From Pigmentiphaga sp. (GTDB taxonomy: Bacteria > Pseudomonadota > Gammaproteobacteria > Burkholderiales > Burkholderiaceae_B), in NCBI RefSeq assembly GCF_019689535.1, contig NZ_JADGHH010000005.1, positions 1 to 40,266 of the forward strand: a stretch of DNA of 40,266 bases, read 5' to 3'. Made by a program: the position numbers and the translations under genes. Of this stretch, positions 37,334 through 40,152 are shown piece by piece (within the stretch, counting starts at the first letter, position 1; each line of letters begins with the position of its first letter). A model generated the notes under the pieces. It searched no databases and was not told the DNA's origin. It saw only the letters and a program-made list of their open reading frames with translations.

Positions 37334-37422
37334 GATGGCCACAATCATAAGAGATAAGCGGCGCGGCACCCCGGCGCGGATCAAACGGTCCTAGCTGCCC
37401 TTGGGACCAGCCGGCTTTAGCC

Positions 37423-37490
37423 GGGATACTGCAGGCATTTCACCGCACCACCGCCATGACTCTCGCCGTCCTCGCCAGTTGCGCGCTCAC
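37423..37490 (+). repeat. Left direct repeat: comM 5' region copy A (upstream bases plus the first 12 codons, truncated)
   Basis: 66/68 identity to 38581-38648; further upstream sequence also alignable but diverged; homology to comM stops after ...GCGCTCAC. Confidence 0.95.
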
Positions 37491-37491
37491 C
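37456..37491 (+). pseudogene. comM 5' stub (MTLAVLASCALT)
   Basis: Identical peptide to the intact comM N-terminus at 38614 before abrupt divergence. Confidence 0.85.
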
Positions 37492-37506
37492 CCCCATGCT
37501 ACGCCT

Positions 37507-37685
37507 GGGTATACGACGAAAGGCAGGGCTTGCTCATTTACAGAGCCCTGTCAACTTGTTAGCATTACCCGCCTGGATCCCCCCAGCAGCTTCGGCCGCT
37601 GGGCGCGGGAGCCGCAAGGCTCCCAGCATCCCTATCCCCCCTGCTGTTTCGACAGCAGGGTGCGAGGCCCCCGCATGGGGGCCTC
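37507..37685 (+). ncRNA. Candidate structured RNA: five consecutive hairpins upstream of the NYN gene
   Basis: H1 GGCAGGGCT(37522-37530)/AGCCCTGTC(37544-37552), possibly enclosed by GGGTA/TACCC; H2 CCCAGCAGC-TTCG-GCCGCTGGG (37582-37603, one mismatch); H3 GGGAGCC-GCAA-GGCTCCC (37607-37624); H4 CCCTGCTGT-TTCG-ACAGCAGGG (37639-37660); H5 GAGGCCCCC-GCAT-GGGGGCCTC (37664-37685). Confidence 0.6.
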
Positions 37686-37703
37686 TGCTTTTGCGGGGTG
37701 CCC

Positions 37704-38351
37704 ATGACGGACGCAAGACTACGAACAAGCGTCTACGTCGATGCGTTCAACCTCTACTACGGCACGATGAAAGGCCGCGGCCCTGGCTACAAATGGTTGG
37801 ACCTTGAACTTCTTTGCCGACGCTACCTTCCCCGCAACGACATCACCGCCATCAAGTATTTCACGGCCCTTGTATCGGCGCGTCCCAACGATCCTCAACA
37901 ACCCGCTCGCCAGCAGGCTTACCTCCGAGCATTGGCAACGCTTCCAACCGTCCAGGTCACTTACGGGCATTATCTTTCGCACGCAGTCATGGCTCGCCTC
38001 GCCAATCCGCAGCGAGGCGCGAATCCCTGGGTAAGAGTCCTCAGAACTGAAGAGAAGGGCTCGGACGTCAACCTGGCGAGTCACCTGCTGCACGATGCCC
38101 ATCTGGATCGGTATGACGTCGCCGTTGTCATCTCAAACGACTCCGACCTCGTTGAACCGATCAAGTTGGTGCGGGCAGAGCCGGGTAAGCGCGTTGGCAT
38201 CCTGAATCCCCAGAAGTACCCAAGCGTTCACCTTCGTGATCATTGCGACTTTCTCAAGCAAATTCGTCCCGGCGTGGTGCAAGCAAGCCAGTTGCCGGAG
38301 ATAGTCACTGACAACAATGGGGCGCACATCCAGAAGCCTGCTACCTGGTGA
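37704..38351 (+). CDS. NYN domain (PIN-like nuclease) protein
   Basis: SVYVDAFNLYYG, EEKGSDVNLASHLLHDAHLDRYDVAVVISNDSDLVEPIKLVRAEPGKRVGIL: NYN-type acidic residues preserved; lower GC than flanks. Alternative GTG start at 37698. Confidence 0.9.
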   Translation: MTDARLRTSVYVDAFNLYYGTMKGRGPGYKWLDLELLCRRYLPRNDITAIKYFTALVSARPNDPQQPARQQAYLRALATLPTVQVTYGHYLSHAVMARLANPQRGANPWVRVLRTEEKGSDVNLASHLLHDAHLDRYDVAVVISNDSDLVEPIKLVRAEPGKRVGILNPQKYPSVHLRDHCDFLKQIRPGVVQASQLPEIVTDNNGAHIQKPATW

Positions 38352-38580
38352 CCAAGAGGCCAGGATGCCCCTGAACCCGACACACGACGACCGGCTTCGG
38401 CACGCACGCTGCAAGTTTTCATGGCGGCCTGTTCACGCCGGCGTGGGTTTCGCCATCAAGAGCCTGGCCGCATCGCGCCACGCCTGTCGCGATACCGCTA
38501 GTCCATCCTTCAGCGTCGCGTTCTTCGGTACGCCGAGGGTCAAATGATCCTAGTCGCCCTTTGGCCATGCGGGGTTTGCA

Positions 38581-38648
38581 GGGATACTGCAGGCATTTCA
38601 CCGCACCATCGCCATGACTCTCGCCGTCCTCGCCAGTTGCGCACTCAC
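38581..38648 (+). repeat. Right direct repeat: comM 5' region copy B (continues into intact comM)
   Basis: 66/68 identity to 37423-37490, offset 1158 bp. Confidence 0.95.
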
Positions 38649-40152
38649 AGGCATCGACGCACCGCCGGTCCGCGTCGAGGTCCATCTCGCGCCCGGGCTG
38701 CCTTCGTTCACCATGGTCGGCCTGGCCGATACCGAAGTCCGGGAAAGCCGGGAACGCGTGCGGGCGGCGCTGCTTAGTTCGGGCTATGAGTTCCCGGCGG
38801 GCCGGGTCACGGTCAATCTCGCTCCCGCCGACCTGCCCAAGGAGTCTGGTCGTTTCGATCTGCCGATCGCAATAGGCGTGTTGCTCGCCTCCGGCCAGAT
38901 CGCCATGCCGGCGCTGGCGCGCCGCAAGAGCGGCAACGGCATGCCACCGCTTGCGCGTTGGGTGCTGGCGGGCGAACTCTCGCTCAGCGGGGCCTTGGTT
39001 CCCGTCGCTGGGGCATTGGCCATCGCGTTGTCTGTATCGCGCCGCCAGCCGGGCGCCGAGCTCATGCTTCCCGCCGCAAGCGCGCGCCTGGCGGCACGCG
39101 TGCCCGGATTGAACATCTACGGCGCCGCCACGCTGCAAGATGTCGTCGCGCAACTGGAGGAAAAAGCCGACCTGAAAGTCGCCGCGACCCCGGATGACGC
39201 GCCCGTCCCGGCACCGCTCTGCTTGTCTGACGTGCGCGGGCAATACAGCGCCCGCCGGGCACTGGAAGTGGCCGCGGGGGGCGGACACAACTTGCTGATG
39301 CTGGGCCCGCCCGGCTCGGGCAAGAGCATGCTCGCCCAGCGCCTCCCTGGGCTGCTTCCGCCGCTGCGCGATGACGAAGCGCTCGAAGCCGCGGCCATCG
39401 CCAGCCTGAGGACGGGGCCGCCCCCGCCTTTCGGGCAGCGGCCTTTCCGCGCCCCGCATCACTCCATCTCGGCGCCCGCGCTGGTAGGCGGCGGAACGCG
39501 GCCGCGGCCGGGCGAAATCACGTTCGCGCACCTGGGCGTTCTTTTCCTGGACGAACTGCCCGAGTTCGGCCGGCACGTGCTCGAGACCCTGCGCGAGCCC
39601 TTGGAAACCGGGCGGGTTTCCATCGCGCGCACGCTGCATCGCACCGACTACCCCGCCCGCTTCCAGCTGGTTGCCGCCATGAACCCGTGCCGCTGCGGAT
39701 GGTACGGCAGCAACCTGCGCGCCTGCCGTTGCACGCCTGACCAGGTCGCCGCCTACCGCGCACGCCTCTCCGGCCCCTTGCTCGACCGCATCGACCTGCA
39801 AGTGGAAGTCCCCGCCCCCGCCGACGATTGGGCCGACCTGCCGCCGGGAGAACCATCCGAGGCCGTGCGGCGGCGCGTCCAAGCCGCGCTCGACATCCAG
39901 TACCGGCGCCAAGGCTGCACCAATGCCGCCCTGGCGCCGGGGCAGGTGGAAACGCATTGCCGTCCCGATCGAGCCGCAAGCACCTTATGGAAACAGGCGA
40001 TGAAACAGTTCGCCTGGTCGGCACGCACGGCGCACCGCGTATTGAAGGTCGCGCGCACGCTGGCCGACCTCGCCGGCTCGACGGCGATCGAGAGCGCGCA
40101 CATGGCCGAGGCAGTGCAATTCCGGCGCCCCTTGCAGGAGCTGCAAGGGTAA
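38614..40152 (+). CDS. comM: ComM/YifB family Mg-chelatase-like AAA+ ATPase
   Basis: APPVRVEVHLAPGLPSFTMVGLADTEVRESRERVRAAL, NLAPADLPKESGRFDLPIAIGVL, GPPGSGKSMLA, HHSISAPALVGGG, LFLDELPEF, AAMNPCRCGWYG. Confidence 0.97.
   Translation: MTLAVLASCALTGIDAPPVRVEVHLAPGLPSFTMVGLADTEVRESRERVRAALLSSGYEFPAGRVTVNLAPADLPKESGRFDLPIAIGVLLASGQIAMPALARRKSGNGMPPLARWVLAGELSLSGALVPVAGALAIALSVSRRQPGAELMLPAASARLAARVPGLNIYGAATLQDVVAQLEEKADLKVAATPDDAPVPAPLCLSDVRGQYSARRALEVAAGGGHNLLMLGPPGSGKSMLAQRLPGLLPPLRDDEALEAAAIASLRTGPPPPFGQRPFRAPHHSISAPALVGGGTRPRPGEITFAHLGVLFLDELPEFGRHVLETLREPLETGRVSIARTLHRTDYPARFQLVAAMNPCRCGWYGSNLRACRCTPDQVAAYRARLSGPLLDRIDLQVEVPAPADDWADLPPGEPSEAVRRRVQAALDIQYRRQGCTNAALAPGQVETHCRPDRAASTLWKQAMKQFAWSARTAHRVLKVARTLADLAGSTAIESAHMAEAVQFRRPLQELQG

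Follow-up and report, generated by a model that had tools for sequence, protein, structure and literature searches.

In the AbiF-RCd22 system of C. difficile, a toxic RNase is neutralised by a promoter-driven and terminator-ended RNA, which has two motifs and binds the enzyme directly (PMC12373285). The antitoxin RNAs of type III toxin-antitoxin systems are built from repeats of 34–50 nt, usually present in two or more copies (PMC12373285). The CRISPR-associated NYN ribonuclease of B. fragilis functions in the trimming of crRNA in a type III-B system, and its RNase activity is abolished by the D13A substitution (PMC11346440).

Here, we describe a cassette of structured RNA units and an NYN-domain gene at the end of the window, as we call the whole 40,266-nt stretch of DNA that was analysed. 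The RNA and its pairing with the NYN gene appear new, and the protein is already a defence candidate: its family, HEC-09, is reportedly a Hma-embedded candidate from the Payne 2024 preprint. No paper that pairs an NYN nuclease with an RNA partner of its own was found in the literature searched, outside of which lay the HEC-09 preprint and a 2017 survey of structured RNAs, which could mention the RNA.

Organization of the cassette at the start of comM

The chromosomal order at the end of the window is an alpha/beta hydrolase gene on the minus strand, a comM stub, the cassette, and full-length comM on the plus strand. The cassette itself consists of a promoter-like site, two tandem two-stem RNA units, and the NYN gene. 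The features are listed below; homologous loci are numbered with the prefix L.

37372–37490, plus strand: left repeat, comprising the region upstream of comM and the initial 12 codons of the gene (stub); 86% identity over 119 bp, core 66/68
37537–37565, plus strand: sigma-70-type promoter predicted for the RNA, TTTACA-N17-TAGCAT; 9/12 match
37577–37631, plus strand: RNA unit, copy 1, without a U-run at its end; 47.8 bits, E = 1e-10, with model R1, whose seed alignment did not contain this copy
37634–37692, plus strand: RNA unit, copy 2, in which stem 2 and the U-run resemble an intrinsic terminator; 80.6 bits with model R1, whose seed alignment contained this copy; covariation
37704–38351, plus strand: gene for an NYN-domain nuclease of 215 aa, with a GTG start possible at 37698; PF01936, E = 2e-11
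38531–38648, plus strand: right repeat, with the region upstream of comM and the initial codons of the gene; BLAST and repeat match
38614–40152, plus strand: full-length comM (Mg-chelatase/ComM), intact despite the duplication; ORF reading

The original prediction described a comM stub of 12 codons, followed by a second comM 5′ region leading into the full-length gene, and this arrangement was confirmed. The 68-bp direct repeats that it reported (37423–37490 and 38581–38648) are indeed identical at 66 of 68 positions, with two mismatches, and lie 1158 bp apart. They form the core of an 84-nt repeat with 90% identity and the same spacing (37407–37490 and 38565–38648), and BLAST widens the duplication of the comM start to 119 bp with 86% identity (37372–37490 and 38531–38648). 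The insert is lower in GC, as had been noted, with 57–62% compared to 67–74% in comM. Ten open reading frames scanned from 23.9 to 40.2 kb contained no recognisable integrase or transposase, in agreement with the first reading of the sequence, and no tRNA was found within the window.

The start of comM is uninterrupted in the congeners searched, which provides the empty site anticipated in relatives; in congener G003, the gap between the hydrolase gene and comM is about 105 bp. The NYN gene of the cassette was found in none of ten congeners. Among 61 genomes, five, including that of the window, contain any match, and these matches are mostly weak. Because congeners have an uninterrupted comM and no such NYN gene, the arrangement at comM represents an insertion and not ancestral synteny. 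Judged by this sequence comparison with ten congeners that do not carry it, the RNA-NYN cassette is a horizontal acquisition.

Predicted structure of the NYN protein

The NYN-domain gene that had been recognised in the insert was verified by the match of its product to PF01936. The protein also matches the PADLOC model HEC-09 (PDLC04163) over residues 7–215 of 215 (E = 1e-47) and phrog_7929 (E = 7e-71), and, according to these full-length profile matches, it is a member of the HEC-09 / PHROG 7929 family. Searches of PDB sequences and NCBIfam gave no match, and no Abi_2 domain was detected in the protein. The AlphaFold2 model of the protein (pLDDT of 93) matches the NYN folds of VPA0982 and MARF1, with an E-value of 1e-8 for the fold match to 2qip. 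Residues D13, D121, and D146 are invariant in 52 proteins and have counterparts, by position and spacing, in D13, D118, and D143 of the NYN ribonuclease of B. fragilis. The predicted fold and the catalytic aspartates are those of NYN ribonucleases, and the protein is a candidate RNase.

Structured RNA units

A tract of five hairpins had been predicted upstream of the NYN gene. The tract is structured, with a folding energy of −113.5 kcal/mol (z = −4.9 relative to shuffles), and four of the hairpins form two tandem copies of one two-stem unit (37577–37631 and 37634–37692), but the first hairpin (about 37519–37551) shares sequence with the predicted promoter and lies outside the conserved RNA. 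This strong inverted repeat may be an operator or may have arisen by chance.

The RNA unit emerged from a comparison of the sequences that precede 80 NYN homologues, and a covariance model was then built. The unit is approximately 59 nt long and is composed, in the 5′ to 3′ direction, of AUCCCCCC, a stem 1 usually capped by UUCG, a GGGYGCG junction, and a stem 2 with a one-base bulge, which ends in GC and is followed by a U-run. In 80 distinct RNA sequences, 96% of the cells are paired, 18 of the 20 pairs have changed on both sides, and none of 500 shuffles reaches any of the five measures, although these counts favour the RNA model because the alignment was fitted to model R1. When the partners are slid by one base, pairing falls to about 50%. 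Rfam 15 contains no match to the unit, at gathering or relaxed thresholds, for the window and 13 homologous loci.

Tandem units are present in the window, in L002 from Lautropia dentalis, in L006 and L145, and probably in L123, and most other loci contain a single unit. The first units of the tandems keep the fold and lack the U-run. Another RNA subtype is distinguished by an internal loop in stem 1 (GUAGC-UUCG-GCGAA) and occurs in L035, L027, L043, L030, L060, L042, and the L016/L049 Chloroflexi clade. Only two protein clades have the UAGC...GCGAA stem variant, so that the RNA subtype tracks the protein clade, and divergence of the RNA correlates with that of the protein (Mantel rho of 0.29, reached in 0 of 2000 permutations).

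Sites matching the sigma-70 consensus at 9 or more of 12 positions lie within 55 nt upstream of 34 of 47 homologous RNA units, compared to about four expected from shuffles. The promoter-like sites are more mixed in loci with the convergent layout described below, several of which have sites of their own.

Association of the RNA with NYN genes

According to a covariance-model search, the RNA unit adjoins an NYN gene in 80 of 81 loci, across about 16 phyla; the remaining locus, L053, is truncated where its contig ends. As had been expected, the two therefore co-occur, with sharp edges, at loci unrelated to one another. The RNA is located upstream on the same strand in 70 of the 80 loci, downstream and convergent in nine, and upstream and divergent in one; L224 and L146 have the divergent layout as well. 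In the nine convergent loci, mainly from Actinobacteria, the RNA is positioned just 3′ of the NYN gene on the opposite strand, and the same layout was found in a mycobacterial prophage and an Actinobacterial plasmid. Since the RNA is downstream and convergent in nine loci, we regard it as more than a leader, namely a unit in its own right.

All 25 closest viral relatives have the RNA beside the NYN gene. A model search of 321 genomes of the class identified the RNA in six; in five of them it adjoins an NYN gene, one of which is frameshifted, and the sixth is a weak match without an NYN gene. Nine cassette-carrying genomes contain one or two RNA copies each, the second copies being placed beside a second NYN gene or forming part of a tandem. 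Throughout the whole genomes sampled, the RNA copies adjoin an intact or decayed NYN gene, apart from one weak match. NYN proteins below about 40% identity have a weak RNA match or none, and the RNA therefore appears to belong to this NYN subfamily. Homologues come from about 16 phyla, whose labels are interspersed on the tree, and most of the related loci derive from metagenome bins. They are also found in prophages and on 434 plasmid records, a count that takes in more distant NYN proteins.

Extra strong copies of the RNA without an intact adjacent NYN gene are present in L034 (669–726), L039 (3253–3321), and L065 (1629–1694), each of which also contains a full cassette. The extra copies in L039 and L065 are followed by NYN remnants of 17–18 codons and lie upstream of the complete cassette. 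In L004 (722–1351), L105 (855–1439), and L111 (1501–2118), the NYN gene is broken by stop codons or frameshifts and the RNA is kept.

Possible function of the RNA

We consider it somewhat probable, on balance, that the cassette is a horizontally acquired two-component system in which the RNA controls a nuclease by restraining the NYN protein, by analogy with type III toxin-antitoxin systems and AbiF-RCd22. The RNA would be produced in surplus, as a small transcript of its own, and would bind the NYN protein and curb its ribonuclease activity in the manner of type III antitoxins and RCd22. When a phage takes over transcription, or when the cassette is lost, the RNA level would fall and the NYN nuclease would be free to cut RNA, resulting in defence or addiction. 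Where the genes are co-directional, read-through past the terminator-like stem would provide a low amount of NYN mRNA. We infer the separate transcription, RNA–protein binding, inhibition, toxicity, and defence from the likeness to these systems; among the roles originally put forward, an RNA-antitoxin-like or defence role is our best guess. In favour of this reading are the pairing with the NYN gene in 80 of 81 loci and in all 25 viral relatives, the covariation, the promoter-like sites, the conserved aspartates, the status of HEC-09 as a defence candidate, neighbours such as hsdR, DUF1156 methylase, TIR, and DUF1016 genes (named by eye), the homologues on plasmids and in prophages, the correlated divergence of RNA and protein, and the layout shared with AbiF-RCd22, a proven RNA-neutralised toxin. 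The pattern of an NYN gene broken or lost with the RNA kept (L004, L105, L111, L034, L039, L065) fits an antitoxin, and it is also expected by chance from the tenfold larger size of the gene. The single RNA unit of most loci, unlike the usual repeats of type III systems, counts against the antitoxin reading, as do the many neighbouring genes unrelated to defence.

Alternatively, the RNA may be a guide, scaffold, or activator, forming a ribonucleoprotein that positions or switches on the NYN nuclease as an antiviral effector. The obligate pairing of RNA and NYN gene and the strong structural constraint agree with such a role, and the unpaired 5′ C-rich tract and the GGGYGCG junction, both conserved, could be read by the protein or a target. 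However, both stems are free to vary by compensatory change, no variable guide segment was seen, and the RNA begins at the C-rich tract just past the −10 site. The 5′ tract pairs with the NYN ribosome-binding site over 3.3 nt, compared to 3.1 nt for those of other genes; antisense pairing at this site, being hardly above that of other genes, was rejected. We regard a guide or activator as unlikely.

The position of the RNA directly upstream on the same strand in 70 of 80 loci, together with its terminator-like stem and U-run, is what a cis-acting leader or attenuator of NYN transcription or translation would display, perhaps one cleaved by the NYN protein in autoregulation. Nevertheless, the RNA lies downstream on the opposite strand in nine loci and is divergent in one, as well as in L224 and L146, several of these loci have their own promoter-like sites, and the first copies of tandems keep their structure without the U-run. 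The convergent loci rule out a pure leader as the whole story, and we find a cis-acting function quite unlikely.

Gene-end duplications and mobility

Direct repeats of 26–213 bp flank 19 of the 76 testable chromosomal cassettes, which correspond to fewer than 19 independent events because some repeat-flanked loci share an event (e.g., L052, L054, and L061). In the controls, one of 258 shifted positions and none of 23 Abi_2 loci were flanked by repeats. Of 27 plasmid or viral copies of the cassette, none had such repeats. Where the genes could be assigned, the repeats leave intact the 5′ end of a downstream gene, such as comM, a DUF1156 methylase gene, or hsdR (the latter two named by eye), or elsewhere the 3′ end of an upstream gene, for example an hsdM-like gene in L059 (by eye). 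Such long gene-end duplications show how cassettes of this kind can slip beside genes without breaking them. In the case of comM, the cassette would have arrived by recombination that also copied the end of comM, because of which the gene would have stayed intact.

The neighbours of the cassette, named by eye, include hsdR, DUF1156 methylase, TIR, DUF1016, and housekeeping genes, and many are unrelated to defence. Given this diversity of insertion sites, comM was ruled out as a preferred target of the cassette. Genomes in the genus of L062 differ at the hsdR junction: L225 and L226 have the RNA-NYN cassette there, and L228 and L230 have no insert. In L229 (535–702 and 1450–3753), a DUF3800-like gene, a different nuclease-like cargo, is enclosed by two hsdR 5′ ends, one of them a 116-bp stub; in L228 and L230, the same upstream gene as in L229 directly abuts hsdR and marks the empty site. 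Since L227 and L231 (1–1490) have a Fic-like gene (by eye) at the same junction, the spot exchanges cargo. No Rfam family was matched by the hsdR/DUF3800 loci, at gathering or relaxed thresholds.

The excess of flanking repeats at chromosomal cassettes over both control sets, and the sharp edges of the cassette at its promoter and stop codon, could indicate a self-mobile element, the RNA and/or protein of which would cut the target, drive insertion, and create the long duplications. However, the DUF3800 gene at hsdR in L229, next to the empty sites of L228 and L230, has the same kind of duplication, which is therefore not specific to the RNA-NYN cassette. Because the duplication also flanks this unrelated gene, the cassette is probably not self-moving. 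The repeats vary greatly in length and are missing from the plasmid and viral copies, and neither conserved DNA ends beyond the cassette's own promoter and stop codon nor multiple dispersed copies per genome were found. At the right end, third codon positions vary and the conservation is that of the protein, in a C-terminal tail whose last residues are KPxxW, which rules out the DNA ends as recognition sites. RNA-assisted mobility, initially suggested as a role, is not supported and is very improbable. We give hardly any credence to an RNA-NYN ribonucleoprotein that itself cleaves the target and drives insertion, as a sub-kilobase transposase-free element generating duplications of 26–213 bp. 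The cassette does not classify as an autonomous transposon, having no transposase, integrase, or conserved terminal DNA.

NYN/PIN-like RNases are common and the second stem is terminator-like, but it is extremely unlikely that the gene encodes a normal housekeeping RNase and that its terminator-like 5′ region is unremarkable, in view of the covariation together with the conservation of stem 1 and the junction, the patchy distribution, and the location on plasmids and in prophages.

Comparison with known systems

The cassette NYN protein belongs to the same family as HEC-09, and the cassette adjoins DUF1156 methylase genes in several loci. PADLOC lists HEC-09 as a single protein model, in which no RNA partner is apparent. 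The present RNA, small and conserved but not represented in Rfam 15, is tied to this widespread defence-candidate nuclease in about 16 phyla, and assays or clones of the HEC-09 protein alone may miss half of the system. The B. fragilis NYN ribonuclease shares the fold and three catalytic aspartates with the cassette protein; however, no dedicated structured RNA partner has been described for it.

Type III toxin-antitoxin systems (ToxIN, CptIN, and TenpIN) resemble the cassette in the succession of promoter, structured RNA, terminator, and RNase gene and in being mobile and plasmid-borne. The cassette has this layout, a structured RNA beside an RNase gene with a predicted promoter and terminator, at the sequence level only. 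An NYN/PIN-like protein replaces the ToxN/CptN/TenpN fold, and the RNA unit has 59 nt in one or two copies, in contrast to the shorter type III repeats.

AbiF-RCd22 likewise combines a single nuclease gene with a short structured non-coding RNA directly upstream that has its own promoter, a terminator-like stem between RNA and gene, two tandem motifs, and prophage or defence settings. Unlike the HEPN (Abi_2) toxin of that system, the cassette protein is NYN/PIN-like, and the cassette RNA differs in structure from the AbiF RNA and can lie downstream and convergent. By the abiF RNA motif/Abi_2 criterion, the cassette falls outside AbiF-RNA systems. With its different toxin fold and RNA, the cassette belongs to neither the type III nor the AbiF-RCd22 group. 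Restraint of the enzyme by the RNA, if real, would add the NYN/PIN-like superfamily to the RNA-neutralised toxins, as a third nuclease fold next to ToxN and HEPN/AbiF, and would bear on a possible origin of RNA-guided nucleases from toxins bound by RNA.
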